Under the pieces are notes generated by a model. The model saw only the letters and a list, made by a program, of their open reading frames with translations, searched no databases and was not told the origin of the DNA. From contig JACPZK010000006.1 of the NCBI GenBank assembly GCA_016195565.1, positions 218,900-282,899 on the forward strand: a stretch of DNA of 64,000 nt, written 5' to 3'. Source of the stretch: Nitrospirota bacterium. Its GTDB lineage: Bacteria; Nitrospirota; Thermodesulfovibrionia; Thermodesulfovibrionales; UBA1546. Shown here piece after piece: positions 16,346 through 38,700 of the stretch. Numbering within the stretch: position 1 is the first letter of the stretch; each line of letters opens with the position of its first letter. The position numbers and the translations under genes are program-made.

Positions 16346-16462
16346 TCAAGCGTTTATAGTTCTATGTCTATTTTTCGGCTCTTCAACTTCCCGCTTCCTA
16401 AAAATGGTTGATTGTATTATAATTTCCTCAAAAATAACTTCATAAGGAAAGGAATACAGCTT

Positions 16463-17281: not shown

Positions 17282-17284
17282 AAT

Positions 17285-17992: not shown

Positions 17993-18642
17993 GCATGAGA
18001 CTTAATATATCCGAGGTCCGGAAAAGCTATAACGGAAAACCTGTTCTGAATGCCTGCTCCTTTTCTTTTGACAGAAACGGCGTTTATGTATTAACGGGAT
18101 CTAATGGCAGCGGTAAATCCACGCTGCTCAGGATATGCGCCCTTATTGAAAATCCTGATAAAGGAGAGGTCAATTATTTCTCCGGCGATAATATAATTAG
18201 CAAGGATATCGGATTAAGACGAAGGATTACCCTTGTTTTGCCCGGGATTGGTTTGTTTAACACTACAGTTTTTAATAATGCAGCTTACGGGCTGAAAATA
18301 AGGGGAGACAAAAGCAAAGAGATAGAAAGAAAGGTCTATGATGTATTGAAATTTGTCGGACTCATTCATAAAAAAAATCACAATGCCCTTACGCTTTCAA
18401 GCGGCGAAACCCAGAGGCTCGGCATTGCAAGGGCAATGGCCATAGAGCCTGAGATGCTCTTTCTTGATGAGCCTACCGCATCCATTGATAATGAGAATAC
18501 AGAGATTGTGGAGAATATAATCTTAAATATGAAAAAAGAAGGCAGATCCAAAATCATTATTGCCACCCATGATATGCTACAGGCTGAAAGGCTTGCTGAT
18601 TGCATGCTCATCATGGATGAGGGGAAAATCAGCAAGGTTTAA
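17989..18642 (+). CDS. tupC: Tungstate ABC transporter ATP-binding protein
   Basis: A 217-residue ABC ATPase. Walker A is GSNGSGKST, the signature is LSSGETQRLGIARAMA, Walker B is MLFLDEPTAS and the switch His is in IIATHDML. It powers tungstate import with TupAB. It is compact and lacks the C-terminal TOBE/MOP domain found in ModC. Two in-frame ATGs (17989 and 17995) are possible; the first overlaps the tupB stop. It is the last gene of the operon. Confidence 0.92.
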   Translation: MSMRLNISEVRKSYNGKPVLNACSFSFDRNGVYVLTGSNGSGKSTLLRICALIENPDKGEVNYFSGDNIISKDIGLRRRITLVLPGIGLFNTTVFNNAAYGLKIRGDKSKEIERKVYDVLKFVGLIHKKNHNALTLSSGETQRLGIARAMAIEPEMLFLDEPTASIDNENTEIVENIILNMKKEGRSKIIIATHDMLQAERLADCMLIMDEGKISKV

Positions 18643-19941: not shown

Positions 19942-20316
19942 CTAATGAGGCTGATTGATAAAACCGTTGACGAGCTTTATAAGTTCCTGCGTTTGTATCG
20001 GTTTCGGAAGATATGCGTTAGCTCCGATGGCAAGCGCCCTCTTTTTATCTTCCTCTGCGCCTTCTGTTGTTATTATTATTATAGGTATGTCCTTATAAAT
20101 GGGATTGCCCCTTACAAGGCTGACGAGTTTCAAGCCGTCCATGACAGGCATGTTTATGTCTGCAAGTATGAGGTCTATTTTTTCAGAAGATAATTTTTTC
20201 AAAGCATCAACACCGTCCGTTGCTTCAATCACCTTTGAGCCTGCTATCCTTTTCATAGCAAAACCGATGAGCTGTCTCATCGTCGGAGAATCTTCTACCA
20301 CAAGAATATTCGGCAT
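19942..20316 (-). CDS. CheY-like single-domain response regulator
   Basis: 124 residues forming one receiver domain: acidic pair in VVEDSPTM, phospho-acceptor Asp in LILADINMPVMDG, Thr in IIIITTEG and Lys in YLPKPIQ. AGGAGG precedes ATG 20316. No output domain is present. It closes the che operon and is close in sequence to the CheY at its start (32.4 kb). Either could be the CheA output or a phosphate sink. Confidence 0.9.
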   Translation of the reverse strand: MPNILVVEDSPTMRQLIGFAMKRIAGSKVIEATDGVDALKKLSSEKIDLILADINMPVMDGLKLVSLVRGNPIYKDIPIIIITTEGAEEDKKRALAIGANAYLPKPIQTQELIKLVNGFINQPH

Positions 20317-20324
20317 CTTATCAG

Positions 20325-21149
20325 CTACCTCCTCGGCTTTTCTTTCAGCATATCAAGGAAACTCTGTATTGTGGTCAGTTTCCTCTCTGATTGCGTATAT
20401 AGTTTTGAAGAAAAAATAGCAGTGGCTGCATGCCCTGCAAGCAGATTAAAAAGCTCGTAGTCAACATTTGAGAACTTTTCTTTCTGAATCAGAAGAGAAT
20501 ATATAGCAATAACACCTATCACATGCTCCTTAATCTTTAAAGGGATACAGACTATGGGGTTTTCGGTAGAGATACTGCCTCTGTTATTATGTATATTTTC
20601 AGAAAAATAGCTCTCGCCTTCTTTTGCAGCAGTCCCTATAATCCCTTCGCCAAACCTTACCTTAGGAACATCAGAAATGGCTATGCCTTCTGTCCCGACA
20701 GGGATAAGCTCGTTTGTTTTCTCTTCTATAAGGAGCACTGCGAATTTCTCGGCGCCTATGAGGTTTATCACTATTTCAAGGACTATTCTCAGAACTTCAT
20801 TGAAATCCAGAGTTGAATGCAGCTGGTAACTTGCAACGTAGAGGTTGGCAAGGTTGTTATTCTCATCTTCGACTTCAACATACTTTGCCGCAAAATCCTT
20901 ATTTTCTTCCTCAACCTGCCTGAATCTTTCCTTGAGGGAATTCAGTTCATCTTCCGTAATCTTTATCCGCTCTTCATAAAGCCTTATCTTTGCCTCATCG
21001 CCTGAACGCTCAACAGCTTCTTCAAGCTGGGCAAGCTTGAACCTCAACCTCTCATTTTCCTTAAGAAGCTCTTGAGTAAACTCCTCTCCCTTTCTGAACA
21101 TCTGAAGAAACTCATCAGCCTTCTTTCCAATACTTGTTTCTCTTTCCAT
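20325..21149 (-). CDS. Coiled-coil GAF-domain protein in che operon
   Basis: 274 residues from ATG 21149, with GAGGG upstream. Residues ~10-90 form a long charged coiled coil (QELLKENERLRFKLAQLEEA). Residues ~105-250 are a GAF domain (LRIVLEIVINLIGAEKFAVLLIEE, ENPIVCIPLKIKEHVIGVIAIYS). There is no kinase, GGDEF or DNA-binding output. Its place between cheB and cheY suggests a soluble sensor or adaptor that feeds the chemosensory array, an inference from context. The GAF ligand is unknown; no His/Cys cluster suggesting heme or Fe-S is obvious. Confidence 0.82.
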   Translation of the reverse strand: MERETSIGKKADEFLQMFRKGEEFTQELLKENERLRFKLAQLEEAVERSGDEAKIRLYEERIKITEDELNSLKERFRQVEEENKDFAAKYVEVEDENNNLANLYVASYQLHSTLDFNEVLRIVLEIVINLIGAEKFAVLLIEEKTNELIPVGTEGIAISDVPKVRFGEGIIGTAAKEGESYFSENIHNNRGSISTENPIVCIPLKIKEHVIGVIAIYSLLIQKEKFSNVDYELFNLLAGHAATAIFSSKLYTQSERKLTTIQSFLDMLKEKPRR

Positions 21150-21153
21150 CAAT

Positions 21154-22212
21154 TTACCCTCTGTTAACTATATTTATTAACTCCACCGGTATTTCAGAGA
21201 GCGGAAGCACGCTGTCCGCTGCTCCTGCGCTTATGACTTCAGCAGGCATTCCAAAAACCACGGCTGTTTCCTCTGATTCAGCTATAGTATAACCGCCTTT
21301 TGATTTAATTTCCAGCATCCCCTTTTTCCCGTCATTCCCCATGCCTGTAAGAACAACACCCATTGCCTTGGTCCCGTAATGTTCTGCGGCAGATGACATC
21401 ATTAAATCAACCGAAGGCACATACTTGTCCTCTTTGACAGCTTCTTTTAACCGCACATGACATCCGCGCCCTTTTTTCTTAAACATCATGTGGCAACCGC
21501 CAGGGCAAATCAACACCCTCCCCTGTTCAATAACATCACCGTCTTCCGCTTCTTTTATTTTAAGCTTAGAGATATGGTCCAGCCTTTCAGCCAGAGGCCC
21601 GGTAAAACCCTTTGGCATGTGCTGGCTTATAACTACCGACGCAGCAAAATTATGCGGAAGCCGCGTAAGGATTATCTGCAGCGCCGCAGGCCCGCCTGTT
21701 GACGAGCCTATTGCCACAACTTCTATGTCGCCTATCACTGAATCAGTTTTGGCCTGTGCTTCAATATCGCCGCTCAACAGGCTGAGACTCTTGCTTAACT
21801 TATCCATTCTGAGGTTTCTTATTCCCTTTACCTTTGCGAGAAGGTCATTCTCTATGCTCTGCAGCTCCACAGACGCCTTCTTTGTCGGCTTTGCAATAAA
21901 ATCAACAGCGCCCAGTTCAAGCGCCTTAAACACTGTCTTGGTGTCGGAATAAGAACTGACCATTATCACAGGGGTGGGTTTTTCTTTCATCAGCCATCTC
22001 AGAAAACTGAATCCGTCCATGGCAGGCATTTCAAAATCAAGCGTAATAAGGTCAGGCTTCAGTCTCAATGTCTTTGCCATCGCCTCTATGCCGTCAGACG
22101 CTATGCCTATAACCTCAATGCCCGGGTCTGCCTCAAGCATCTTCCTTATCGACTGCCGGCTGTAAGCCGAATCATCAACAATAAGAATTTTTATCTTTGG
22201 TTTTGCTGTCAT
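21154..22212 (-). CDS. cheB: Chemotaxis protein-glutamate methylesterase CheB
   Basis: 352 residues from ATG 22212, 4 bp after the cheR stop; a reading from 22248 would overlap cheR. The receiver domain has VDDSAYSRQ, Asp in LITLDFEMPAMDG and FIAKPT. The methylesterase domain carries the catalytic triad in GSSTGGPAA (Ser), SQHMPKGFT (His) and TGMGNDGKKG (Asp). It removes methyl groups from, and deamidates, receptor Glu/Gln residues, opposing CheR. It is full length, so adaptation is expected even though cheD is absent. Confidence 0.96.
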   Translation of the reverse strand: MTAKPKIKILIVDDSAYSRQSIRKMLEADPGIEVIGIASDGIEAMAKTLRLKPDLITLDFEMPAMDGFSFLRWLMKEKPTPVIMVSSYSDTKTVFKALELGAVDFIAKPTKKASVELQSIENDLLAKVKGIRNLRMDKLSKSLSLLSGDIEAQAKTDSVIGDIEVVAIGSSTGGPAALQIILTRLPHNFAASVVISQHMPKGFTGPLAERLDHISKLKIKEAEDGDVIEQGRVLICPGGCHMMFKKKGRGCHVRLKEAVKEDKYVPSVDLMMSSAAEHYGTKAMGVVLTGMGNDGKKGMLEIKSKGGYTIAESEETAVVFGMPAEVISAGAADSVLPLSEIPVELINIVNRG

Positions 22213-22216
22213 AGTT

Positions 22217-23122
22217 TTATATTTTATTCCCCCATACCATTTTCTCAAGACTTTCAGGTGACATTGCTACCGTAAGTTTTGGCGGTTTTTGATAAACCAT
22301 ATCATGTTTGAAGTGCTTAAGCGTAAAGGCTGTAGAAATATTCATCAACGACTCTGCATGGCCCAGCAGCAGATACCTTCCGTCAGTAAGCCTTTCATGA
22401 AAACCCCTGATTACCTTTTTTCTCGCCTCCAGATCAAAATATATAAGCACATTCCTGCATAATATCACATCCATCTCACCTGCGAATTTCACTTTGAAAG
22501 GGTCCAGAAGGTTAAGGCAGCTGAAATTCACAAGCCGCCTGACGTTGTCGTTTATCTTATAGAAATTATTTTCATATGTAAAATATTTTTCTATATAATG
22601 CTCCTCCGTAGTCCTGAATGAATTCTTTCTGTATACACCTCTCCTTGCATGCTGCAATACTCTCTGGTTGATATCACTGCCGAGTATTTCCACATCCCAC
22701 CCCAGAAAAAAACCCTGCTCCAGCGCCAGCATTGCGATTGTATAAGGCTCTTCTCCTGTAGAGCAGCCTGCAGACCATATCCTTATCTTCTTTGACTCCC
22801 TGTTTGTATTCTTAAGCTCAGGCAGTATCTCCTCGCTCAGCGTTTTCAACTGGCTCATTTCCCTGAAAAAGTAAGTTTCATTTACAGTGAGGACATCTAC
22901 GATAAAAGAAAGCTCTTCATCTCTTCGCTTATCATATAAAAGGAGCCTGTAATAATCCCTGAAATCATTCAGCTGATGGCTTTTTACTCTCTTTGACAGC
23001 CTTTTCTCCAGGATGTATTTTGAATTATCATCAAAATACATCCCGCAGTAATCTTTTATGAGGTCCCTGAGGAGTCTGAATACGTCATCTGGTAAGGAAA
23101 TGCTTTCTTCTATTTCAAGCAT
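22217..23122 (-). CDS. cheR: Chemotaxis protein methyltransferase CheR
   Basis: 301 residues. The N-terminal helical domain (DDVFRLLRDLIKDYCGMYF) precedes the SAM-binding domain with RIWSAGCSTGEEPYTIAML, NETYFFREMSQ and MDVILCRNVLIYFD. It methylates receptor glutamates. AGGAG precedes ATG 23122, which overlaps the HEAT-protein stop by 8 bp. No TPR extension is present. Confidence 0.96.
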   Translation of the reverse strand: MLEIEESISLPDDVFRLLRDLIKDYCGMYFDDNSKYILEKRLSKRVKSHQLNDFRDYYRLLLYDKRRDEELSFIVDVLTVNETYFFREMSQLKTLSEEILPELKNTNRESKKIRIWSAGCSTGEEPYTIAMLALEQGFFLGWDVEILGSDINQRVLQHARRGVYRKNSFRTTEEHYIEKYFTYENNFYKINDNVRRLVNFSCLNLLDPFKVKFAGEMDVILCRNVLIYFDLEARKKVIRGFHERLTDGRYLLLGHAESLMNISTAFTLKHFKHDMVYQKPPKLTVAMSPESLEKMVWGNKI

Positions 23123-25097
23123 TAAGACACTCCTCCACAGCCTTTCTTACAACAGGGTCTTCTTCTTTATCCAGTAATTTCTCAAGCTCAACCCTGACGC
23201 TTCCGCCTGCAGCAGACACCCTCGCACAGAGAACCTCAACAGCCGCCATTCTTGTGGCCCAATCAGAATCGTTAAAATATGGCAGGATTATGCCTTCAAT
23301 AGCATTAAATGGAGCAAGTGATTTTATAGCAGTCCTTCTTATTTCTTTATCATGCGAAGAAAGCATTTCTACTAATGCGCCCCTTGCAGTTTCGCCGCCT
23401 ATCCTGCTCAGAGACTCTATGGCTGTAGTTACAACAAATCCATTAGGGTCTGAAAGCAATTTCATAAGCTGTCTTACAGTGGCCTTATCACCTAATTCAC
23501 CGAGCGCCTTTACCGCTGCCGCCCTGACTGCATCATCAGGGTCAGTGAGCAAAATGAGAAGCGATTCTGACACTCCTTTCCCCTTAATCAAGCCGAGGCT
23601 CAATGCCGCAGAAACCCTTATGTCTGCATTCTCATCCGTAAGTGCAAGCGTCAGATATTTTATAGACTCGTCTGTTTTTATCATGGACAACGCCTTGACA
23701 ACGGCATGCCTTACCTTGATGTTGTCATCCTTCAGCGCAAAGCCGATTGCCGGCACAGCCTTAACAGCTCCAATCTCACCAAGCAATAATACAGCATTTT
23801 TTCTCAGCACAGGATTCCTGCTGCCGATCAGCTTGATTAATTCATCTGATGAAAGACCTGCCTTAAGGCTGGATAATGCGGCCACGGCTGCCTCCTGTAC
23901 ATCTTCGTACTCATCAGAGAGCAGTTTTTTTATTTGCTCTACCGCCCTTAAATCACCTATCCTTGAGATAGCAATCGCTGCGAGCGCTCTCACATGCCCG
24001 TCCTCGTCTTTCATCAGTCCTTCAAACACATCATAAAAAACAGGCGAGGCCAGCTCGCCTGCCACATCGCATATAAACCTCTGCTGGTAGGGGCTGACTG
24101 TATCAAACAAAGACAGAATGACCTCCGGTTTGTCTTTGCCTATGAAGACAAGCGCCCTTTTTACGTCCTCTGCCAGATCCTCTTCCAATGAAAGCTCCAG
24201 AAGCGGAGCAAGCGCCCTTTCATCTCTCATAAGGCCCAGCAGCAGTATTGCAGAAATCCTCATATCTGCCTTAGCGCTCCAGGCATGCGCAACAAGGATA
24301 TCAATAATGCGGTCCACGAAGAACTTTTTCATTTCTTCTGCAATAAATTCTTCTTTCACGCCGTTATGATAAAAATTCCTTATCGTCTTTATTGCTTCTT
24401 CCTGTATCGTCTTTGATGAATCCTCAAGAAGGGGGACTATGTTCTTGAGCGTTTCAGGCGCAGAAAACCTGCCGAGCGCCTTTAGCACCGGTTCTCTGAG
24501 GGTCTTTGTAGAAAGGGCTTTAACAAGAGAAGGTATAGCCTTTCTGTCGCCAATCCTTCCAAGCGCATCTGCGGCAGGATATGACGTCCACAGGTCGCCG
24601 CTTTCAAGTATCTTTATCAGCGCATTCACAACAGCCGGTTCGCCTATTTTCCCAAGATGTTCAACAGCAGTGGCCCTGACATTGTCATCCTCGTCTTTAA
24701 GGGCGTCAAGCATCAGCGGCAGTGATCTTTTGTCTCTGAACTCTCCGAGCACATCTATTATAAATTTCCTCACATCCCTGTTCTGAGTATTGAAAGCCTC
24801 CATGAGAAATGTTGTAGTCTTCTTGTCTAACTTTATGAGAGTTTCTATTGCTGAGTTTCTCGCTCCTGCATTATCATCAATATAAAGAAGGGCAATCAGG
24901 CCGTTGATATACGCTTCTACGGGATAATCATTAAGCAGGATGTCAACTGCTGTCTTTCTCACCCTCCAGCTGACATCTTTCATTGCCTTAAGAAGCAATC
25001 CGATAGAGGCATCAGAAGCTGCGCCTCTCAGGCTCTCAACAACTTCTCTTCTTACCTCTACATCTTCGCTGTCAAGCAGATTTTCCGGTTTCTGCAT
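23115..25097 (-). CDS. HEAT-repeat protein in che operon
   Basis: 660 residues from ATG 25097, with GAGAGGAGAAAG upstream; the longer frame from 25136 lies inside cheW. The whole protein is an array of ~20 HEAT/PBS-lyase-type repeats of ~31 residues with the pattern DENADIRVSAALSLGLIKG or DDAVRAAAVKALGELGD. It has no catalytic domain, signal peptide or membrane segment, so a cytoplasmic scaffold that binds other Che proteins is the likely role (inference). HEAT proteins also occur in some alternative chemosensory systems. It overlaps cheR by 8 bp and follows cheW by 13 bp. Confidence 0.88.
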   Translation of the reverse strand: MQKPENLLDSEDVEVRREVVESLRGAASDASIGLLLKAMKDVSWRVRKTAVDILLNDYPVEAYINGLIALLYIDDNAGARNSAIETLIKLDKKTTTFLMEAFNTQNRDVRKFIIDVLGEFRDKRSLPLMLDALKDEDDNVRATAVEHLGKIGEPAVVNALIKILESGDLWTSYPAADALGRIGDRKAIPSLVKALSTKTLREPVLKALGRFSAPETLKNIVPLLEDSSKTIQEEAIKTIRNFYHNGVKEEFIAEEMKKFFVDRIIDILVAHAWSAKADMRISAILLLGLMRDERALAPLLELSLEEDLAEDVKRALVFIGKDKPEVILSLFDTVSPYQQRFICDVAGELASPVFYDVFEGLMKDEDGHVRALAAIAISRIGDLRAVEQIKKLLSDEYEDVQEAAVAALSSLKAGLSSDELIKLIGSRNPVLRKNAVLLLGEIGAVKAVPAIGFALKDDNIKVRHAVVKALSMIKTDESIKYLTLALTDENADIRVSAALSLGLIKGKGVSESLLILLTDPDDAVRAAAVKALGELGDKATVRQLMKLLSDPNGFVVTTAIESLSRIGGETARGALVEMLSSHDKEIRRTAIKSLAPFNAIEGIILPYFNDSDWATRMAAVEVLCARVSAAGGSVRVELEKLLDKEEDPVVRKAVEECLNA

Positions 25098-25110
25098 CTT
25101 TCTCCTCTCT

Positions 25111-25647
25111 CTACTCATGGGTCGTAGACGAGCCATCGGTTATGAGACCAGTGGATTCTTCTCGCTTCAGTCCGCTCTCATCCGCCTGTGGCGGAGAGGA
25201 GAACGCGTCCGAGGAGGCGGAAAGCATTATCTTTTCCTTTGATGTAAGAAGCCTTTCAATATTAAGGAGGATTACTATCCTCTCTTCTTTCTTGCCAAGG
25301 CCTGTAAGATATTCTGTCTTCAAACCCTTAAACATTGCCGGTGGAGCGCTTATCTCCTCAGGACTAAAAGGGACTATCTTATCTATTTCATCAACCAGAA
25401 GTCCTATCTTCTCATCCTCGCAGCGGACCACTATTATCCGGCACTTGCCGGTTTCGGTATGAGCGCCGAATCGCTTCCTGAGGTCCAGCAAAGGGATTAC
25501 ATCGCCCCTTACATTTATAACGCCTGAGATAAAATCAGGCAGTTCAGGAAGAAAATAGATCTTCTGCGATTTCAGTATCTCAACAACACTGCTTATGTTG
25601 ACGCCGAAATCTTCTTTTCCTATTTTAAAAACAGCAAATTTTTCCAT
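25111..25647 (-). CDS. cheW: CheW coupling protein (first copy)
   Basis: 178 residues from ATG 25647, preceded by AGAGGAG. The CheW fold covers residues ~1-145 (FAVFKIGKEDFGVNISSVVEIL, VINVRGDVIPLLDLRKRFG, GLLVDEIDKIV). It links receptors to CheA. The last ~40 residues are a low-complexity tail (SSDAFSSPPQADESGLKREE) that includes the palindrome TCCGCCTGTGGCGGA at 25181-25195, so the tail may have grown by repeat insertion. Confidence 0.93.
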   Translation of the reverse strand: MEKFAVFKIGKEDFGVNISSVVEILKSQKIYFLPELPDFISGVINVRGDVIPLLDLRKRFGAHTETGKCRIIVVRCEDEKIGLLVDEIDKIVPFSPEEISAPPAMFKGLKTEYLTGLGKKEERIVILLNIERLLTSKEKIMLSASSDAFSSPPQADESGLKREESTGLITDGSSTTHE

Positions 25648-25688
25648 AACTCCTCTGGTATACATAACGTCATAAGTCCTATACGCTT

Positions 25689-25714
25689 TGTCATTCCGGC
25701 TTGCTCGGCATGAC
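25689..25714. repeat. Short GTCATTCCGG/CATGACAG repeat
   Basis: GTCATTCCGGCTTGCTCGGCATGAC is an imperfect palindrome of the CATTCC family. It lies between cheW and the chemoreceptor gene; nothing else is seen in this ~100-bp gap. Confidence 0.45.
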
Positions 25715-25774
25715 AGAGAACTGCCGTGGATGCGGCATATTTTACGCCGCTAAGTATAAATAAATGTTTTCTCA

Positions 25775-28627
25775 TCATGACAGCATCCCCAGTTTTAACA
25801 TCATGGCCTTTACGCTGTCGTAATCTTCATCCCTTGCCTCGGTGAAGCCGGTATATGCCTTGGCTATAGATTTAAGGACCAGCCCTCCTTCAGCAGAAGT
25901 ATCTATCAGGGCAGTTAAGGCTGACCTCAGCAGAGAAACCTCCTCTTTGCTTAATGACTTATTGACGCAGATATTGAATTCAGGAATATCTTCTGAAATC
26001 TTCAGGAACTTTAACCCCTGATCCTTGAATTTGTGTGCCGTGTCCTCCATAACGCCTCCTCCGTCAAAATCACCCTTGAGCACTGCCTTAGCCACATCAT
26101 CATGGTGGCCGAGATAGTCGTAATAAGAAAGATCTGTTATCTTTATTCCCGCCTCTAAAAGCATGGCCCTCGGGACGATGTGGCTTGACGTTGAATGGAA
26201 GTCTCCGAACGCAAAGGTCCTCCCCTTCAACTCTCCTATGGAATTAATGCCCCCCCTGTCCGCTTTTGTGATTATTACCGAGTGCTGATAAGGCTTGCCA
26301 TTTCTTAAAGCCTTTACAATTACATCAACACCGTATTTCTTGCGCGCCTCTATATAAGTGGACGGCGTCATAAAGCACATCTGCGTAACATTTTGCCCTA
26401 TAGCATCAACCGTTTCCTCAAAGTCCATTGCTAACTTAAGGTCAACCCTTCTGCCTAATTTTTTACTGAGATAATCCGCTAAGGGAGTGAACTTCATAAA
26501 CATCTCCGCGGGGGACTCTAATGGTATAATTCCAAATTTCAATATGCCTTTCTCCTCAGAAAACCTGAACCTTCCTATTTCTGTGTCAAGCAGCTCTGCC
26601 TCTTTCTGCAGGCCCCTCAATGAATTATTTACATTAAATGCGAGGTCCCGATTCCTTTTCGGAATGTCTTTAATCTTTTCAATGGATTTCCACATCTGAT
26701 TAGAGCCTATCTTTTGTTCATAAATTGCCTTTGAAATCTGCTGGCTTTTGCCGGAGACTACCTCAATGGCCCCTGATATGTGTTTGCTGGTCGCTGCCTG
26801 TTCGTCAGCCGCTGACCTGACCTGATGAGATATATCCCTCATCTTTTCTGTTGCGCCCATAATCAGGGTGGTCCCCTGCGCCTGCTCTGATGTTGACTTG
26901 GCAATCATGCCTGTCATGTTTTTGATGCGCTCCATTGCCTCTGAGACAAGCCTTATCGCCTTTGCCTGTTCGCCTGTGGAACGATCTATGGAGAACGCCA
27001 TCTCGGAAGACTTCTTAGAACTGTCCAGAATCTTCTTTAATGAATCTGACGCCTCTTTTGAGAGTTTCAGTCCATCATCAACTGATTTCAGCCCCTCCCC
27101 CATTGCCTGAACAGTGCCTTTTACTTCCTGCTGAACAGACTGGATGAGAGAGCCTATCTCCTGCGTTGAGAACGCTGTCCTCTCTGCAAGGTCTTTAATC
27201 TCCTCCGCAACAACTGAAAACCCTTTTCCATGTTCGCCTGCCTGCGCTGCGAGTATAGCGGCATTCAGGGCCAGGAGGGTTGTCTGGTCGGTAATATCAT
27301 CTATCACATTGAGTATCTTGCCTATCTCCTCGGACCTGTCGCCGAGCTTCTTGACAAAATCGTTTGTTTTTTCAACGGAAGACTTTATATTCTTCATTCC
27401 CTCTATAGTTTTTTCTATGGAGCCCATTCCGAATGTTGACGCGTCAGTCATGACCTTCTCTGACAGCTTCGCCGATTCTTTAGCGTTTATCTCAACATCT
27501 TTCACAGAAAATTTCATTTCCTCTATGGCAGAAAGCGTCTCCTCTGTTGCAATTGAAAGATTATCGGCATTCTGCGCAACTTCTTTTATCGTGGCGGAAA
27601 GCTGCTCAATAGAAGATGACGTCGCATCAACAGCGCCGGAAAGGTCATGGGTATTATTTTTAACATTCCCTATCGCATTAGCCATCTCCTCCATCGAGGC
27701 TGCCGTCTCTTCCGTTGAGCCGGCAAGCTTTTCAGTGCTCTCGGTAATCTCTGATATAGCGGCGTTCAGCTCTTCAACCGAACTTGATATATCCGCTATG
27801 GCCTCTGTCTCAAGCTGAGTGCCGTCCAGCACCTTTTTTGAGTCCTTTCCAACACTTTCAACAACATGCGTGACCCTTTCCGAGATATCCTTTATCCTCT
27901 GCAGTATCCTTCCCACCGAACTCACAGACTCCTTTATAGAACTGTTTAGCCGCGCAATCTCATCTTTACTCTTTATGTCCACATCAAATGAAAGGTCTCC
28001 CTCCTCCAACTTCAATGCTGCCTCTTCCATCGCCTTAATAGGCAATATAACCATTCTCCTGAGCATGAGCCAGAGCACAAGGCTGAACCCCAGGGCGCCG
28101 GCAATTGTCAGCAAAATAACGGTTATTACTGATTTCTTTGCCCTTTCATATTCCTTTTCTATTGTCAGCGAAACCTTTATAGCGCCAAGGATAGCTCCTT
28201 TCTGCGCATGACATACCTGGCATTCAGCGGCATTTTCAAGAGGTTTGTAAAAGATATACCCTTTTGCATCCGATATAACAATCGGCTCCTTAGCATTTAT
28301 AATCTTCTTCATAGCTTCAGCTTCGGTGGCTGGAGCATCTTTTTCGAATGCCTCTCTCCCTTCGGAATTTACAACATGGAGGCCGGCTATGCCTACGGTC
28401 CCGCGCAAGCCCTCTATAAGCTTTTTCGTAAGGTCGGGCCTGTTGTCCAGCATTGTCATCTCAATGTTCTTCTTTATAATTGCAGCCGTGGTCTCTGAAT
28501 TTTCTCTTGTAATTCCGTAAAGAGTTGACTTCTCTATAAGCATAGTCATGACGCCAGCAAGGACGACGCCTACAAGAAGCATGGCTAAAACAGTAATAAT
28601 TATCTTTAATTCAAGTTTTTCTCTCAC
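25775..28627 (-). CDS. Methyl-accepting chemotaxis protein with heme motif and C-terminal PhnD-like domain
   Basis: 950 residues. TM1 is ~10-30. The periplasmic region ~31-166 contains CQVCH at 136-140, a c-type heme attachment motif as in heme-PAS or Tll0287-like sensors. TM2 is ~167-190, then HAMP (~191-245) and a long MCP signalling domain with the hairpin tip around residue 460 ([20 protein letters not shown]). From ~694 to the end lies a complete phosphate/phosphonate-type binding domain ([56 protein letters not shown]). Such domains are normally periplasmic; by topology this one should be cytoplasmic. It may sense redox or gas through heme and an anion through the C-terminus. Confidence 0.9.
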
Positions 28628-28860: not shown

Positions 28861-29583
28861 TCATTTTAGATTTATATCCACCGCCTCTTCCAGACGTAGG
28901 ACCGAGATAAACCTGCCGTTGTAAAGAACAACGCCCCCTACGAACATCAGGTCTGACTCGCTGAGATGAGCCGGCGGCTCTGCAATGTCGGATTCATCAA
29001 TGCGAATAACACCGTTTATCCTGTCTATCATTATCCCGATACGTCCCTTTGGGCCTTTCAGAGTCAGTATCTTTTTACGCACCTTGCCCGATGCTCCGTT
29101 ATCTTTAATTGAGAGCCGCTTTTTCAAGTCTAAAACAGGCATTACCTTTCCCCTGACAGAAGTTATGCCGAGGATGTAATCCGGCGCTTTCGGAACCATT
29201 GTAATTTGCTGGGGAGTGAGAATCTCTTCAACTTCAGAGATCCTGAAGGCAAATTCTTCCGCGGCAAGCTGAAACGTAAGAAGTTCTATTATGCCTGAGA
29301 TTGCCTCTTCAGGTTTAGCTGTTTTTGAAACAGATTCAGCAGGACTTTTTTCTTTAACAGTCTCCTGCTGGGAAACAACCTGAGCAGGCACATAGGGCTG
29401 GGGGTTTTCCCCCTGTATGCTGTCTACTATATACTGTCTACTGTCTTCTGTTTTCTCAGCGGTGTCTGGCTGCTGTTGAGCGCCTCCGCCAGAGGCGGAT
29501 GTAATATCATCGGCAGCCTTGTCCTCTTGCTTTTCTTTCTCTGCTTCTTCTTTAATCTTTTTTCTAATTTTCGCTATATCCAT
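28861..29583 (-). CDS. cheW: CheW-like coupling protein with disordered N-terminal extension (second copy)
   Basis: 240 residues. The C-terminal ~140 form a CheW domain (ELLTFQLAAEEFAFRISEVE, GITSVRGKVMPVLDLKKRL, GIMIDRINGVIRI). The first ~100 are charged, Gln/Pro-rich and probably unstructured. That extension spans the palindrome TCCGCCAGAGGCGGA (29485-29499) and a tandem GTAGACAGTATA/GTAGACAGCATA tract (peptide SRQYIVDSIQ), which look like repeats absorbed in frame. It overlaps the end of the ATPase gene by 20 bp. The extension could give this CheW its own receptor or array preference. Confidence 0.9.
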   Translation of the reverse strand: MDIAKIRKKIKEEAEKEKQEDKAADDITSASGGGAQQQPDTAEKTEDSRQYIVDSIQGENPQPYVPAQVVSQQETVKEKSPAESVSKTAKPEEAISGIIELLTFQLAAEEFAFRISEVEEILTPQQITMVPKAPDYILGITSVRGKVMPVLDLKKRLSIKDNGASGKVRKKILTLKGPKGRIGIMIDRINGVIRIDESDIAEPPAHLSESDLMFVGGVVLYNGRFISVLRLEEAVDINLK

Positions 29584-30394
29584 TTAGTCCAAACTCCTGA
29601 GCAGCTTCGTTAATTAATTGCCTTTCAATTATCCTGCATTCATTGCCAAGCCCGCTTAAGAGCGCGGCAGTCGCCAGGCTGTTAATCAATCTCGGGACGC
29701 CGCAGGAATATGCATGAAGCGCCTTTAACGCCTCACCGGTAAACAACTGCTCCTCGCATCCGCCCACCTTCAGCCTGTGTTCCACATAACCAATTATTTC
29801 ATCTTCGCTTATCGGCCCCAGGTGATAAAAAAGTCCGATGCGCTGCTTCAACGGCAGATATGCCTTATGATTTAACCTGCGCCTTAAGTCCGGCTGTCCC
29901 ACAAGTATAAGACTTAAGAGATTTGCGTCATCAAGCTGAAAGTTTGTAAGCAGCCTGATCTCTTCGAAGGTATCCTTGTTCGGGATAAGCTGAGCCTCAT
30001 CTATGATTATCACAGGGGTAATCCCTGACTTATAGTCTTCATAAACTTTTGAATATATCGCCTCAAGAAGGTCATCCTTGAGGCTCGAAAATCCGCCTGA
30101 AACGGCAATATCAAACCGCTTGGCAACTGTCCTGAGAAACTGCGCCGGCGTGAGGCGGGGATTAATAATGAGAATAATCCTGTATTTTTCTCCGAGCGAG
30201 TCTATCAGCGCGCGCGTGAGCGTAGTCTTGCCGCAGCCGACATCGCCTGTCAGGACCACAAGTTCTTTTTCTTCAACTGCATACTGCAGTCTTGCAAGCG
30301 CCTCTTCATGCGCTCTGCTCATGAAAAGAAATTTAGGGTCAGGTGTTTTAGTAAAAGGCCTGCGTTTTAATCCATAGAATTCCTCATAGATCAT
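29564..30394 (-). CDS. ExeA/GspA-like AAA ATPase within che operon
   Basis: 276 residues. The N-terminus MIYEEFYGLKRRPFTKTPD with Walker A LTGDVGCGKTTLTRA, Walker B TPVIIIDEAQLI and the sensor region SLILVGQPDLRRRL are diagnostic of the ExeA/GspA/MshM group. Those ATPases work at the envelope in type II secretion or MSHA pilus assembly, usually with a peptidoglycan-binding partner. Here there is no PG-binding domain and no secretion gene. It is coupled on both sides (11-bp overlap with cheA, 20-bp with cheW), so a role in the chemosensory pathway or a pilus-linked output is inferred. Confidence 0.88.
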   Translation of the reverse strand: MIYEEFYGLKRRPFTKTPDPKFLFMSRAHEEALARLQYAVEEKELVVLTGDVGCGKTTLTRALIDSLGEKYRIILIINPRLTPAQFLRTVAKRFDIAVSGGFSSLKDDLLEAIYSKVYEDYKSGITPVIIIDEAQLIPNKDTFEEIRLLTNFQLDDANLLSLILVGQPDLRRRLNHKAYLPLKQRIGLFYHLGPISEDEIIGYVEHRLKVGGCEEQLFTGEALKALHAYSCGVPRLINSLATAALLSGLGNECRIIERQLINEAAQEFGLNGYSEN

Positions 30395-32366
30395 AAAGGC
30401 CCCCTTTTACTTTTTGTTTGACTACGGAATCATCTATAAGGCCGTCAACATCTATGACAAGAATAACTTCATGCTTGCCTATCTCTGCCGCGCCTGCAAA
30501 ACCCCGAAGGCCCGTAAAATATTCTCCAAGTGATTTAATAACTATTTCGTGCTGCCCGAATAACTCGTCAACCATCAAGCCGTGCCTTCTGTTTCCGGTT
30601 CCTGCGACAACGGCAAAAAACCTCTCAGGCTCTTCATCCGTTAGAGCAAAAACCCTTCCGATATTTGTTATCGGAAGCATCTCGCCTCTCAGATTATAAA
30701 CATCCTTTCCATCAACGGCCTGGATATCGCCCCTCGTAATAATAAGCGTCTCTGATATGGAAGTAAGCGGTATCGCAAACTTCATGGTTCCGACTCTTAC
30801 GATAAGCGCTTTTATGATGGCCAGGGTAATCGGAATCGTCAGGGTAACCTCAGTGCCCCTGCCTTTCTCTGTATCAATTTCAGCAAAGCCGCCTATTGCC
30901 GCAAGTTTCTCTTTTACAACATCCATGCCCACACCGCGGCCCGACACCTCGCTGACCACCTCTTTTGTGCTGAACCCGGGCGTGAATATGAAATTTACAA
31001 GTTCCTTCTCATCCATCTCTGCGTTTTTATCCAGAAGCCCTTTCTCAATTGCCTTCTCCTTTACCCTCTGAATGTTAATGCCTCCGCCGTCGTCTTTTAC
31101 CTCAATGATAACGTGGTTGCCGCGCTGGGACGCCTTCAGAATAATGGTTCCTGATTCCTTCTTCCCGTTTTTTTTCCTTTCTTCCGCAGACTCTATGCCA
31201 TGGTCAATCGCATTTCTCACAAGATGCATTAAAGGGTCAATTACTTCCTCTGCGATATATTTGTCAATCTCAGTGTCCTCGCCGTACATAGCAAGCTCTA
31301 TGCGCTTTTCTGTCTCCCTTGAGTATTTCCTTATAACCTGCGCAAGCCTTGAAAATATCTGTCCTATGGGAACCATCCGTATCTCAAGAACCTGGTTTTG
31401 AAGTTCAGCCAGTTTCCTTTCCAGCGTCTGGGCGATTTTATTCACATCAGCAACCAGCGGAGAATGCCTGTAACTCTCTGCGAGTTCTTCGCTTATTCTT
31501 TTTACAGCGCCTTTCACAAGCGTCAGCTCGCCTATGGTATTAAGGATCCTGTCCAGTTTCTCTATGTCCACTCTAACAGTCGTAGTTGTGCTTTTAAGCG
31601 TAGTCTCCTGAGACTTCTGCTGGGGCGCCGCAACCTCTGCAATTTTCTGGCTGACCAGTGTGTCAACCTCACACCTTATCGTATCCTTAAGTTTTTCTGC
31701 AGGCTCAAGGCTCCCGAACATGAGATTGAAGCCAATGGAATCCGGCGGAACATTTGAAGAGGTAGGCAGCGTTGATATCAGTTCGCCTTTTGACTTTATT
31801 GTCTTTGTAAGTTCTTCCAGCGCTTCATCAAAATCCGACAGCGAGAAAACCGCCTTTGCAAGATAAATCCACTTACCTTCCTGTATATTTGTCTTTAATC
31901 TGTGCTCTTCGTATTCTGTCAGGACCATGAGCATGGACTCATCAATAAGGCCCTTAAGCTCAAGCCCCGTTGTCTTCCCCGCAAGAGAATTTCTGAACAC
32001 CTCTATATTCTTAAGATGTCCGCTTACATCCTGTTCTTTGTCTTTATCCTTAGTGAGTTCTTCAACAAGCAGTCTCAGTATGTCAATATTATTAAACAGA
32101 AATCTTACAACTTCATCCGAAATATCAACCTTGCCGAGCCGTATCCCGTCAAGCAGGGACTCAAGCGCATGGCTGAGGTCTGAGATGCCCTGATGCCCGA
32201 AAAGCCCTGAAAGCCCCTTGAGTGTGTGTATAGAGCGGAACAGCGCATTAACGCTGTCGGGATTCGGTCCTGTTTGAAAGGTATCCTGTATCTCAAGAAT
32301 CAGTCTGCCCGACTCTTCAAGGAGGTCTGATGCTTCAGCTATAAACTCTTCTTTGGCTGAACTCAT
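30384..32366 (-). CDS. cheA: Chemotaxis histidine kinase CheA
   Basis: 660 residues. The HPt domain has its phosphorylated His in SIHTLKGLSGLFG (~residue 47). A middle region (~130-240) is followed by the dimerisation helix pair (VDIEKLDRILNTIGELTLVKG). The HATPase domain shows N-box LVRNAIDHGIESAEER, G1 VKDDGGGI and G2 VSGRGVGMDVV. The CheW-like P5 domain is last. It phosphorylates the CheY proteins and CheB. It overlaps cheY by 4 bp. Confidence 0.97.
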   Translation of the reverse strand: MSSAKEEFIAEASDLLEESGRLILEIQDTFQTGPNPDSVNALFRSIHTLKGLSGLFGHQGISDLSHALESLLDGIRLGKVDISDEVVRFLFNNIDILRLLVEELTKDKDKEQDVSGHLKNIEVFRNSLAGKTTGLELKGLIDESMLMVLTEYEEHRLKTNIQEGKWIYLAKAVFSLSDFDEALEELTKTIKSKGELISTLPTSSNVPPDSIGFNLMFGSLEPAEKLKDTIRCEVDTLVSQKIAEVAAPQQKSQETTLKSTTTTVRVDIEKLDRILNTIGELTLVKGAVKRISEELAESYRHSPLVADVNKIAQTLERKLAELQNQVLEIRMVPIGQIFSRLAQVIRKYSRETEKRIELAMYGEDTEIDKYIAEEVIDPLMHLVRNAIDHGIESAEERKKNGKKESGTIILKASQRGNHVIIEVKDDGGGINIQRVKEKAIEKGLLDKNAEMDEKELVNFIFTPGFSTKEVVSEVSGRGVGMDVVKEKLAAIGGFAEIDTEKGRGTEVTLTIPITLAIIKALIVRVGTMKFAIPLTSISETLIITRGDIQAVDGKDVYNLRGEMLPITNIGRVFALTDEEPERFFAVVAGTGNRRHGLMVDELFGQHEIVIKSLGEYFTGLRGFAGAAEIGKHEVILVIDVDGLIDDSVVKQKVKGGLYDL

Positions 32367-32731
32367 AAGTTCAATACTTTCCTTACGATGTCCTGCAGTT
32401 CCGTAGCCTTGAATGGTTTAGTTACGTATGCGCTCGCTCCAAGCGCCATTCCCCTCTTTTTATCCTCCTCGCTCCTTTCAGTGGTAACTATGATAAGGGG
32501 GATATTGCTGTATCTCGGATTGCTCTTCACGAAATTTATCAGTTCAAGGCCGTTTATGTCAGGCATATTAATATCCGTGACGACTAAATCAAAGTCCTGA
32601 ACAGGAAGGAGTTTTAAGGCGTCAAAACCTGTGGGCGCTTCAACTATGTTAAAGTCTCCGAGTTCCTCTATAACTGCCCTTATCAGAGAGCGGGTAGTTG
32701 TTGAGTCTTCAACTATCAGAATTGATTTCAC
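32363..32731 (-). CDS. cheY: CheY response regulator at head of che operon
   Basis: The receiver-only product is 122 residues from GTG 32731 (GGGGG 4 nt upstream); an alternative start at 32758 adds nine residues (MREEGKGGH). IVEDSTTTRS holds the acidic residues, LVVTDINMPDING the phosphorylated Asp, IVTTERS the Thr and YVTKPFKA the Lys. It is the first gene of the chemosensory operon and overlaps cheA (ATGA). Confidence 0.93.
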   Translation of the reverse strand: MKSILIVEDSTTTRSLIRAVIEELGDFNIVEAPTGFDALKLLPVQDFDLVVTDINMPDINGLELINFVKSNPRYSNIPLIIVTTERSEEDKKRGMALGASAYVTKPFKATELQDIVRKVLNL

Positions 32732-32783
32732 ATGACCCCCTTTTCCTTCTTCTCTCACGTCAATAAACTTTTTTGTATTTGCC

Positions 32784-33565: not shown

Positions 33566-34522
33566 TTATTCCTTTTCCTTTATTTTAAACATACATTTTT
33601 CATATTCAATATTACATTTTTGAGCTTCTTTATCATCTTTGCATCCTTTTTCAGGTATAGCTTTTTGTAAACATTCTTGTTTTTCCGCTTCACAACACAC
33701 TGATTCTTTAGCCCCTGAGCAGCCCCAATTCACATATTTTTTGCATGCCCATCTACCGAGAAGGGGCAGATCTTTGCACGGATTATATCTGTCTAATCCA
33801 AAAGGATCTGTAAAGTTCACCGGATTATTTCCTACATACCTATACAAATTCACATCTCCCCCACCAAACCCAATCGGATCTTTTGAGATGAATCTGCCTC
33901 TGCTCGGATAATAATATCTTCCTCTGTAGTAATACATTCCAATCTCAGAATCGTACTCCCTTCCTGTAAAATTATAAGGCTGGATTAGGGTTCCTGTCTG
34001 TGAGGCAATAGTGCCATATGCCTTGTAAATATATGTCTTAACTGCGCTTCCTGTGCTGTCTGTCATTGTCTTTATGCTTCCAAGCGCATCTGCATGGTAG
34101 TAGTAGTTTGCCCCTCCTTTCTTAATCCTCAAAGGCTCGTCTATACCAGGGCCGTGGGTGTATCTGGCAGCTACAGCTCCGGTTCCGTCATATTCTGTTA
34201 CGATGTCTTCGTTGTCATATAGGTATTTTGTGATTACTCCGTTTATGTCTTTCTTTATCCTCCTGCCAAAGGGGTCGTATTTGTATTTCACTACGGTGGC
34301 GCCAGGCCGTATTATTTTTTTGAGCCTGTTTTCATAATCCCAGAAGTATTGCGTTAGAGCGCCTGTTGTCTTATTTGTCTTTGTTATAAGATTGCCGTTG
34401 TTGTCATAGGTGTCTTTTATCTCTTTTATCCTTTTCAGATATTTCAAAACAAGCAGATAGACATACAGTCTTCGCATTAGCAAGATTTGCTGTAATTGTT
34501 TTATGTCTCTATACCGCAGCAT
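33566..34522 (-). CDS. Orphan Rhs C-terminal module with Cys-rich tip
   Basis: 318 residues. The shared leader MLRYRDIKQLQQILLMRR is followed by four or five YD repeats (YDPFGRRIKKDINGVITKYL), the Rhs core (TGREYDSEIGMYYYRGRYY, FISKDPIGFGGGDVNLYRY) and a tip after DPFGL of ~75 residues. The tip is rich in Cys and Lys (NWGCSGAKESVCCEAEKQEC), unlike the main protein's tip. No signal peptide is present. Around the core, ~120 bp are almost identical to the main Rhs gene (36068-36188), which would allow tip exchange. A membrane protein follows as candidate immunity. Confidence 0.75.
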   Translation of the reverse strand: MLRYRDIKQLQQILLMRRLYVYLLVLKYLKRIKEIKDTYDNNGNLITKTNKTTGALTQYFWDYENRLKKIIRPGATVVKYKYDPFGRRIKKDINGVITKYLYDNEDIVTEYDGTGAVAARYTHGPGIDEPLRIKKGGANYYYHADALGSIKTMTDSTGSAVKTYIYKAYGTIASQTGTLIQPYNFTGREYDSEIGMYYYRGRYYYPSRGRFISKDPIGFGGGDVNLYRYVGNNPVNFTDPFGLDRYNPCKDLPLLGRWACKKYVNWGCSGAKESVCCEAEKQECLQKAIPEKGCKDDKEAQKCNIEYEKCMFKIKEKE

Positions 34523-34807
34523 TTAAATCAGCCTGTCCCCTTTTTTTCTAATTACTTCTTCCCATTCCTTTTTGTAACGGTCATAGGGCTTTAAAGAATC
34601 CTTGATGTCTTCCAATGAAGGCACTAATAAAAAAGCAATAATGCCTACCAATGCCTTATAGTACCACTGCAACGATTTCCAGAAATATACGCCAAAAAAT
34701 AAGATGGCTATCCAGATGACAACATATATCCATCCTCTCATTAGGGCAAATATATATTGTCTTCGCGTAAGTAACTGTTGCGATGTAAGTTCCGCTAACG
34801 AGGGCAT
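34523..34807 (-). CDS. Small membrane protein, putative Rhs immunity
   Basis: 94 residues with two close membrane segments (IYVVIWIAILFFGVYFW and ALVGIIAFLLV) and a charged C-terminus (YDRYKKEWEEVIRKKGDRLI). It begins 4 bp after the orphan tip at 34812-35318, in the position of its immunity gene. The last codons overlap an AAAAAAAGGGGACAGGC repeat. No family recognised. Confidence 0.55.
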   Translation of the reverse strand: MPSLAELTSQQLLTRRQYIFALMRGWIYVVIWIAILFFGVYFWKSLQWYYKALVGIIAFLLVPSLEDIKDSLKPYDRYKKEWEEVIRKKGDRLI

Positions 34808-34811
34808 GGTA

Positions 34812-35318
34812 TTACTTACATCCTTTCGGCTTCGGTGGTTCTATTTCTTCTTCGCAGGGTAAAATTGCTGCACTTATGATCGAGCCGATGCCAACGCCAG
34901 TTTCCCAAGCAAGACCTACCAATGCAAAATTAGTAGCGGCAGTTCCAGCAGCAATGATGCCTGTTTCAAGACCTGTAAAAGCCACTCCTTGGAGCGCTGC
35001 ACCACGAAAACCAAGCATAGCCCACTGGCGCAATGTAATACCGCCAGTTAGTTCAGCTACTTTTCCACCTGTCAGAAGCCCCATGCCTACGCCGGGTATA
35101 ATCGCAGGAGCTAATGCGCCTGGAATGACTTTATTCGTTTGCCAGAAATTCTCCCCGACTCTTGACCAGAAAGGTTTTTTACATTTTAACCCCCACGGGT
35201 CCACCCAGTTCACCGGATTATTTCCTACGTAAAGATAGAGATTAATCCCTCCTTCAAGTCCAATCGGGTCTTCACTTATAAACCATCTCATTTTTATGTT
35301 TCTGCTTTTTGAATACAT
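34812..35318 (-). CDS. Displaced Rhs tip (core remnant plus hydrophobic toxin-like C-terminus)
   Basis: Up to 168 residues. It opens directly in the Rhs core tail ([20 protein letters not shown], then VDPWGL), followed by ~120 residues rich in Gly/Ala and hydrophobic ([36 protein letters not shown]). The start is unclear: ATG 35318 overlaps the previous gene, ATG 35291 follows it, and neither has a good ribosome site, as expected of a silent tip cassette. Its ITLR-x4-G-x-RG pattern matches the main Rhs tip, so the two tips appear homologous. A membrane-active toxin is possible but unproven. Confidence 0.6.
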
Positions 35319-35719
35319 AAGTACCGAATTAAATCATCCAAAGTTCCAAATTTCTTATTGTTAAATGAGAGACTGACTTTTTTTGCCTCATCACGTATAA
35401 CATATTCAAGATCAACGATTTCATCTTCCACCAAATGGCCTTCAACCGGCCCTAATTCTTTATCGAAACGATCAGTTGGACGCAACAGGCACGGATCGAG
35501 CTTAAGAATCTCAGCAATTTTACCCCACATATTAGTAAATCTATGTATCTCAATTCCTGAATCCGCATAAAAACGATAATAGATATCTCTTACGTCCATT
35601 TTACCTCTTTCTGCAAATCTTTGCCTTTTCTTTGGCAATCGTTTTGCTTCCAGCAAATGAGCCACAATCCCAATAATTCCAAGTAATACCAAAATTAATA
35701 TGAAAACAAATGCCTTCAT
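35294..35719 (-). CDS. Putative immunity protein of the main Rhs tip
   Basis: 141 residues. One N-terminal membrane anchor ([20 protein letters not shown]) precedes a soluble domain ([33 protein letters not shown]). It starts 2 bp after the stop of the large Rhs gene on the same strand, the standard place of a cognate immunity gene. No known immunity family is recognised. If the tip attacks the inner membrane or acts in the periplasm, an anchored inhibitor would fit. Confidence 0.6.
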
Positions 35720-35721
35720 AA

Positions 35722-38700
35722 TTAAAACATGCTGCAGTCGAGTTTACAATAAATAGAGCAGCTTAGCACCAACCCTCCAGCATAACTAGCTGTACCTACG
35801 GCTGCAACATTTGCATAGGGATTAACTACCCGAAGTGCAATTGCGGATCCTCTTAGACCGACACTCCTTAATGTAATACTAGCAAGGCTTGTAAATGGAT
35901 TTTTTGAGCCTAATAATAGTTTATTCCCGGGATATGGCACAGAAGCGAAAGGACTTCCTACCCCAAGAATGCCCAATGCTATTAATCCCCCACTTTGCTT
36001 ATAACAATTCTCAAAACAACTTGAAAAGTTGCAACACTGAGATGCTGCAAGCCCTTCCGGATCCACAAAGTTCACCGGATTATTTCCCACATACCTATAC
36101 AAATTCACATCTCCCCCACCAAACCCAATCGGATCTTTTGAGATGAATCTGCCTCTGCTCGGATAATAATATCTTCCTCTGTAGTAATAAAGACCTGTCT
36201 CTGGATCAAACTCTCTTCCCGTGAAGGTGTAGGGCTGGATGAAGGTCTGGCTCAATTGATAGGTAATCCTTCCGAAGCTGTTATATTCATACTTCTGCAC
36301 TACTTTCCCTGTGCTGTCTGTTATGGTCTTGATTGAGCCCAGCCCATCAGCATGATAGTAGTAGCTTTGTCCGGCTCGCTCCATTGCCAGCGGCTCGTCA
36401 ATGCCCGGGCCATGGGTGTATTTTGTTGTGAGAACACCACTTCCGTCATATTCAGCCAGAATGTCTTCGTTGTCATAGAGATAACTCTTGATTGTTCCGT
36501 TCACGTTTTTCTCAAGCCTTCTTCCAAAGGGGTCGTAGGTGTAAGTTATAAGTTGAGAGTTAGGAGTTAAAAGTTGAATTAATCTATTTTCAAAGTCGTA
36601 GGAAAATGTGGTTGTTTCTCCATTAGTCTTACGTACCTTCCGTATGAGGTTTCCGTTGGCGTCATAAGTGTAGAGATAAGCAGCATCTTCTAAGAGTCTG
36701 TTGGCTGTATCTACTGTTGTGTTTGCTCTATTGCCGACTGGGTCATAGGTAAATTGCTCTGAGGGCGGCTTTGGATGGGTGGCCTGCGTGAGTTGATATA
36801 TGACGTCATAGGCATAGTTGTGTGTGCCGGCGCTTTCGGTCATGGTTGTGCGATTGCCGACGTTGTCATGGGTGTAGGTAAACGAGTTAAGAGTTGAAAG
36901 TTTTGAGTTAAAAGTTATGAGACTTGTAAGACGGCTGTTGCTGTCATAGGTGTATGTTGTCTGCACTACATTTGGATGTCTGAGCTTTGTCCGCCTCCCG
37001 AGGCTGTCGTAGGTAAATCCGAATTGTTTTCCTGAGGGGTTTGTGATTGAGGCAACAAGGTTGAGAGCATTGTATGCGTAACTTGTGATGCCTCCTGTCG
37101 GGTCTGTCATTGAGGTGCGGTTTGAGTTTGCATCATAGGTGTATTGCAGGGTTTTGCCAGCGCTGTCAATGGAACTAATTATTCTCTTGTTTGCGTCATA
37201 GGTGAAATTGTATGCAATGTATTGGTTTCCAGCATATGTAAGGCTGCTGTTTGCATTGTATTGATAGGCGGCCATGTTGCCGTCAGGATAGAGTTTTTGT
37301 GTGAGTCTGTTTACTGCGTCGTATGAATAGGTGATGGTGTTTGCATTTGCATCGGTCTTTGTCTTGAGGTTTCCGTTTGGGTCGTAGGCGTATGCGGTTA
37401 TGTTTCCCAGCGGGCCTGTTTCTTTTATGAGTCGGCCGGCGAGGTCGTACTGGAATGTTGTGGTATTGGCTTTGGCGTCTGTTACTGTTGTGAGTTTATC
37501 TCCTCCGCCTCCGCATGATGAGCAGCCTGTGCTCCCATAGGCAAATGTCGTGATAGCGCTGAGCGCATCTGTTGCCTTTGTTACCTGGCCCCTGTAGTTG
37601 TATCCATAGTTTGTGGTGTTGCCGTTGGCGTCTGTTACGGATATTTTGTTGCCGTTTTTGTCGTAGGTGTTTGTTGTTATATTGTTCAGCGGGTCTGTTA
37701 CTTTTATGGGTTTGTTCAGGCTGTTGTATTCAAGCCTTGTTATATGGCCCTGCGCATCTGTCAGGGTCAGGAGATTGCCTGATATGTCGTATGTGAATGT
37801 TGTTACTGCTCCTGTTGGGTCTGTGATTGTTATGGGATTGTTATACTGGTCATAAGTAAGAGTTGTGAGTTGGGAATTCGGAGTTATGAGTTGTATAAGG
37901 TTGCCTTTGGAATCGTATTGATATTGGGTAACTGCTCCTGAGGCGTCTGTGGTTGTTAAGAGGTTGCCTTTGGCATCATAGGTGTATGTTGTTACTTTGT
38001 TCTGTGAGTCGGTGATGCTGGTTATCTGTCCGAAGGTGTTGTAAGTGTAGGCTGTTGTGTTGCCTAATGCATTGGTTGCTGAGGTCCTGTTTCCTGATGT
38101 GTCGTATGTGTATATGGTTGTGCTGCCCAGTGGGTCTGTTTCTGTTATAAGGTTTCTGTTGCTGTCGTAGGTGTATGTGGTGGTATTGCCCAGCGGGTCT
38201 GTCTTTTGTGTGGTTACGTTTAGGAGAGAGTCGTATTTGTAGGTCCATATGCCTCCGTCTTTTTCCGTTGCTGTTGCTGTGTTGGTTACGGTGTCATAGG
38301 TTATGCTTTTTGTCTTTCCTTCTGGGTCTGTTGATGAGACAACTTTATTGTTTGCATCGTATGCGTATGTTGTTACATATCCCATTGGGTCTGTTTTTGT
38401 AAGCAGCTGGTTGTTTGTGTCGTATGTATATGCCCAGTTGAGAGTTCCAAGTTGTGAGCTGGCAGTTGAAATCTGAGTAAGCATGTTATTGCTGTAGGTG
38501 AGGCTGTAGCTGTTATTGCTTGGCTCTGTTATGCCTGTGATTTTGTTGGTTGAGTCGTAGGTGAGATAGGTTGCCCTTCCTGAAGGGTCTGTTATGGTTG
38601 TAAGGTTGTCGCCTGTGTAGGTCAGGGTTGTTGTGTTATTGTTTCTGTCTTTTATGGATGTGAGTTTGCCTGTGGCTCTGAAGTTGTAGGTTGTGTTGTT

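Follow-up and report, generated by a model that had tools for sequence, protein, structure and literature searches.

The gene at positions 25,775 to 28,627 of the window (the whole stretch of 64,000 nucleotides of DNA from an uncultured Nitrospirota bacterium analysed here) encodes a chemoreceptor fused to a PhnD-type binding domain. The protein quite likely serves a chemosensory pathway of its own, which is probably non-flagellar, as a receptor with an input on each side of the membrane. The heme half of this protein is of a known kind, and the cytoplasmic PhnD-type input is the new half; no description of an MCP fused with a PhnD domain (PF12974) was found in the open-licence literature. Most chemoreceptors have a periplasmic domain with which they sense the outside, and it is also on that side of the membrane that binding proteins usually contact them; a complete small-molecule binding domain of the PhnD kind is normally located beyond the inner membrane. 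The reading frame begins with GTG, has GGAGGT upstream, and contains the following parts:

25775..28627, minus strand: MCP-PhnD fusion chemoreceptor, 950 residues (open reading frame and Pfam)
28538..28615, minus strand: first membrane segment (TM1), residues ~5-30 (hydropathy)
28067..28135, minus strand: second membrane segment (TM2), residues ~165-187 (hydropathy)
27929..28063, minus strand: HAMP domain, residues 189-233 (PF00672)
26573..27928, minus strand: long signalling hairpin, residues 234-685, tip near 459 (MCPsignal, invariant tip residues, AF2 helix to 685)

The protein carries the attributes of an MCP, namely a HAMP domain, an MCPsignal hairpin with the conserved tip, and CheA, CheW, CheR and CheB partners. 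Hydropathy averaged over 19 residues exceeds 1.6 in the TM1 and TM2 regions only, and a third membrane segment, sought over the 950 residues, was not found (the maximum past residue 240 is 1.0), which rules out a periplasmic C-terminus. The sequence-only reading had placed the fused domain in the cytoplasm on the basis of two membrane segments, and this is supported by the lack of any further one ahead of the C-terminal domain. Its coordinates and anatomy also agree with ours, and the architecture is real and conserved: the MCP fusion was confirmed in 73 distinct sequences from many genomes, so that an assembly chimera is ruled out.

The best MCPsignal stretch (Pfam) covers residues 406-571, and the tip aligns near residue 459, which leaves two near-equal arms of about 220-226 residues each. 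This near-equality suggests that the hairpin comes back to HAMP at the point where the PhnD domain begins, which would place the domain beside HAMP on the cytoplasmic side of the membrane. In the full-length AF2 model a helix ends at residue 685 and the folded domain comes after a linker of low confidence (687-693), but the overall domain arrangement is unreliable (pTM 0.41), so any contact of the PhnD domain with HAMP is tentative.

The region between the two membrane segments contains the first of the two inputs:

28130..28537, minus strand: periplasmic sensor of the sCache_heme type, residues 31-166 (matches to PDB 3b47 and 3b42; PF21563 in 26 of 27 orthologues)
28208..28222, minus strand: CQVCH heme c attachment motif, residues 136-140 (C, C and H invariant in 27 orthologues)
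28451..28453, minus strand: M59, at the position of Met60, the distal ligand to the heme in GSU0935 (Met in 52 of 53 aligned rows)

Homology of the sensor region to the Geobacter sensors GSU0582 and GSU0935 is seen in matches to their crystal structures, 3b47 and 3b42 (E 1.5e-6 for 3b47), in which the CXXCH motifs align. In the window protein the PF21563 heme-MCP sensor profile covers residues 49-154 with 25.2 bits, slightly below its cut-off of 27, and its best value among the orthologues is 1.1e-12. M59 is invariant alongside C136, C139 and H140 in the 27 aligned orthologues; in the 53-row alignment that includes both Geobacter proteins it corresponds to residue 60 of each, and the two Cys and the His are present in every row. 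This invariance rules out a chance CXXCH. The motif had been noticed from the sequence alone as lying between the membrane segments, which is borne out, and the check on heme proposed at the time finds the heme-ligand residues strongly conserved. Cytochrome c assembly proteins are encoded in the genome, and heme is predicted from sequence to be covalently attached to the sensor.

In GSU0935, the distal heme ligand Met60 dissociates on oxidation and gives way to CO or NO (PMC8396549). A preprint of 2026 describes the family as sCache_heme within the Cache superfamily, ascribes the properties of NO sensors to fused members and notes its enrichment in Nitrospirota (PMC12889525). Given the alignment with the Geobacter sensors, the heme half is a member of this described family (PMC8396549; PMC12889525). 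The window protein shares with GSU0582 and GSU0935 (PF21563; sCache_heme) the location of the sensor between two membrane segments, the CXXCH motif, the proximal His, the distal Met (the pair being Met60/His144 in GSU0935) and the MCP output; what sets it apart is the very long hairpin and the PhnD domain that follows it at the C-terminus.

The distribution of the fusion shows which of the two inputs is constant. In a sample of 396 Nitrospirota genomes, 99 places in 91 genomes indicate the fusion (scores of at least 294 bits, counted by hand; below a gap in the scores, stand-alone and other proteins begin at 260 bits). The periplasmic sensor is of the heme type, with CXXCH, in 46 of the 73 distinct fusion proteins, and the remainder have no sensor or no CXXCH, with the exception of one truncated sequence. 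A periplasmic domain without CXXCH is present in L188-L196 (one L190 copy excepted), L058, L059 and one L060 copy; short loops and no periplasmic domain are found in L061, L062, L187, L198 and L199; and L054-L057 have a shorter hairpin and no periplasmic sensor. The PhnD domain is thus the constant input, and the periplasmic sensor is swapped or lost among relatives. It could be argued that the protein is a plain heme chemoreceptor for redox or NO, of the Geobacter type, in which the C-terminal domain has been carried along by descent with little effect, and the heme domain is indeed complete and matches the described sensor family (PMC12889525). This is highly improbable, however, as the C-terminal domain outlasts the heme and many fusions without CXXCH keep it in the same operon, an argument limited by the collection of the fusions through a PhnD-domain search, in which PhnD-less versions would be under-counted.

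The second input follows the hairpin and shows these features:

25784..26557, minus strand: C-terminal PhnD/PtxB-type binding domain, residues 691-948 (PF12974, AF2 and Foldseek)
26186..26194, minus strand: S812-T813-S814, oxyanion site equivalent to the STS motif of PtxB (S812 in 73 of 73 fusions)
26102..26104, minus strand: H842, equivalent of PtxB His160 (70 of 73 fusions)
26045..26047, minus strand: E861, near-invariant in the fusions (70 of 73)
25976..25978, minus strand: F884, in the place of the capping Tyr208 of PtxB (Phe in 69 of 73)

The PF12974 profile is matched over its entire length (positions 1-242 of 242) by residues 698-936, with 201 bits against a cut-off of 27, and residues 687-950 modelled alone reach a mean pLDDT of 95 (AF2), so that the complete PhnD-type fold noted earlier behind the signalling domain is confirmed. 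The best Foldseek matches are complexes of PtxB, ArrX and PhnD (E about 1e-28), and PtxB is also the best match in a sequence search. The residues that hold the oxyanion in Te_PtxB are Y55, Y100, S130, T131, S132 and H160, and the site is capped by Y208, which is bonded to D22; the exchange Y208F makes phosphite binding weaker by about three orders and essentially abolishes the binding of phosphate and methylphosphonate (PMC5700983). The STS-H oxyanion site is present in the window protein (S812, T813, S814, H842). Among the 73 fusions identity is 100% at S812, 96% at E861 and H842, 95% at F884 and 73% at each of T813 and S814, the column mean being 60%, and the stand-alone relatives vary far more at these pocket positions. 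Strong conservation of S812, H842 and E861 is also the answer to the earlier suggestion that the domain be inspected for ligand-pocket residues.

The cap is a different matter. The position of the capping Tyr is occupied by Phe in all but four of the 73 fusions, and that of its Asp partner by Leu, Val or Ile (Phe in one) in all of them. The domain has been considered as a PtxB/PhnD-like receptor for phosphite or phosphonate that would report the availability of reduced phosphorus, an idea favoured by PtxB being the best match in both sequence and fold and by the retention of the STS-H site; however, the replacement of Tyr by the very residue that cripples binding in Te_PtxB (PMC5700983), the loss of the Asp and the location of the genome's three PF12974 genes (the fusion, one beside an MCP and one beside a histidine kinase) make it very unlikely. 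Since the anion site is kept and the phosphite-type Tyr-Asp cap is exchanged for Phe-Leu, the internal ligand is expected not to be phosphite and is probably another oxyanion-like molecule.

With the periplasmic receptors PtxB, PhnD and HtxB (PF12974) the window domain has in common the complete two-lobed fold and the STS-H site; it differs from them in its cytoplasmic location behind an MCP, in the cap and in the absence of a transporter. Neither a membrane segment nor a signal that would place it in the periplasm, as expected of a PhnD-type ABC receptor, is present ahead of the domain, and beside the fusion there are no ABC transporter genes and a che operon instead, a context that rules out a role in ABC transport. 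The operon comprises:

32363..32758, minus strand: CheY-like receiver (PF00072)
30384..32366, minus strand: CheA (Hpt, H-kinase_dim, HATPase_c, CheW)
29564..30394, minus strand: AAA ATPase, ExeA-like (PF13401)
28861..29583, minus strand: CheW (PF01584)
25111..25665, minus strand: CheW (PF01584)
23115..25136, minus strand: HEAT-repeat protein (PF13646)
22217..23122, minus strand: CheR (PF01739)
21154..22248, minus strand: CheB (PF01339)
20325..21152, minus strand: GAF-domain protein (PF13185)
19942..20316, minus strand: CheY-like receiver (PF00072)

A single operon type was found in 48 of the 56 fusion loci sampled, in the order CheY, CheA, AAA ATPase, CheW, MCP-PhnD, usually a second MCP, CheW, HEAT, CheR, CheB, GAF and CheY; the fusions of L054-L060 and L066 lie outside che operons. 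The window operon is complete except for the second MCP, which most relatives (L034, for example) have at the place where only ~110 bases (25665-25775) separate the fusion from CheW. It was not found elsewhere in the window's genome either, the L034 copy reaching 31% at best against the other MCPs. The ExeA-like AAA ATPase and the HEAT-repeat protein are constant members of the operon across Nitrospirota.

These two unusual and constant partners speak for the possibility that the PhnD-type domain no longer senses a small molecule and serves as a protein-protein module, which might for instance dock the HEAT or AAA protein or space receptors in the array. The same could be said of the abandonment of the phosphite-type cap and of a same-genus relative (L035, 8306-9082) whose PhnD domain is without the STSS anion-binding segment, a loss that may mean a change or loss of ligand and implies that the pocket is not essential everywhere. 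On the other hand, the 73 fusions retain S812, H842, E861 and F884 at 95-100%, above what would be expected of a surface alone, and the pocket Ser is also kept in relatives outside che operons (L054-L057), so that this possibility appears unlikely.

Returning to the two-input receptor, the following mechanism is proposed. On the outside, to judge from the Geobacter homologues, the Cache domain with its covalent heme c would change state when the ligand Met59, which would sit opposite His140, is exchanged through redox potential or by NO or CO. On the inside, the PhnD-type Venus-flytrap domain, which a short linker joins to the hairpin end, would close on a small cytoplasmic oxyanion-like molecule, presumably an anion, and the closure would shift the packing at HAMP and the hairpin base and thereby change CheA activity. 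Adaptation would be supplied by CheR and CheB, and CheA would phosphorylate the CheY-like proteins, whose target would probably be type IV pili or some other output that is not flagellar. The receptor would thus integrate external and internal signals, the internal domain being the constant and probably ancestral input and the periplasmic domain an exchangeable second one.

With regard to output, flagellin was sought in the window's genome (99% complete) and none was found, which sets the pathway apart from flagellar chemotaxis. The genome has two CheA proteins, five MCP genes and three PilT-family proteins above the cut-off (PilT/PilB-type ATPases). The absence of flagellin together with the presence of several such ATPases makes a non-flagellar output probable, and the pathway may be linked to type IV pili.

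The use of this PF12974 branch in signalling is indicated by its stand-alone relatives, which adjoin MCP, kinase and GGDEF genes. The nearest ones have a hydrophobic N-terminus and a gene that usually touches or overlaps a membrane signalling gene; a crude motif scan of the partners of 55 of them gave 20 GGDEF/EAL, 16 kinase, 2 ABC and 17 unclassified, and Pfam confirmed partners in five cases (GGDEF, kinase, PAS, SpoIIE). These nearest relatives are periplasmic, whereas the Nitrospirota fusion has the domain inside the cell. The PhnD-like gene beside an MCP in the window's own genome (L209, C22, 7852-10799) encodes a stand-alone protein with a likely signal peptide, directly upstream of a long-hairpin MCP, and the pair is an unfused counterpart of the fusion. 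The one beside the sensor kinase (L213, C26, 5500-6348) is in two frames with an in-frame TGA between them, being either a broken gene or an assembly error.

Comparable uses of the fold are known. ArrX and AioX, the arsenate/arsenite-linked sensors represented in the PDB, have the PhnD fold and work with a membrane kinase, but each is a stand-alone protein in the periplasm. A further PhnD-like protein with a partner in signalling is XAC2383 of Xanthomonas citri (5ub3/5ub7), whose partner is a diguanylate cyclase; it differs from the window domain in being separate and periplasmic and in its diguanylate cyclase output, and one PDB entry has ATP bound. LysR-type regulators employ a binding-protein fold as a cytoplasmic sensor, but they are transcription factors without a membrane receptor.

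The inner domain is conserved in a large part of the phylum and the outer one is swapped, a pattern that points to an undescribed steering of bacterial behaviour by an internal chemical signal. We give even chances to a broader view, in which this is an ancient pathway across several Nitrospirota classes, whose constant stimulus comes from inside the cell by way of a binding-protein domain moved from the periplasm to the cytoplasm and fixed at the hairpin base, with a second, exchangeable input in the periplasm (a heme sensor, a plain Cache domain or none) and a ligand undescribed for this pocket type. If true, a phylum-wide receptor with a constant intracellular sensor of binding-protein fold would take in its signal by a different route, which lends itself to direct tests on the soluble domain of 260 residues; it would also provide a model for the combination of external redox or gas state with an internal metabolite level in one receptor, and a function for a conserved operon of a little-studied phylum. 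Samples from two further phyla (395 and 398 genomes), drawn from loci titled Desulfobacteraceae and Sulfuriferula, gave only stand-alone matches of 281-318 residues at the thresholds used, which more diverged fusions would escape. A fusion is carried by one unclassified bacterium (L091). In a quick and incompletely resolved domain tree the fusions need at least two label changes, one perhaps due to a truncated sequence, and a single origin is possible.

Elsewhere in the window, positions 16412-18642 hold genes resembling a tungstate-type ABC importer (binding protein, permease and ATPase). Positions 33566-39903 encode a YD-repeat (RHS-like) protein of 1393 residues, followed by two shorter reading frames that resemble its C-terminal part and are perhaps displaced tips.
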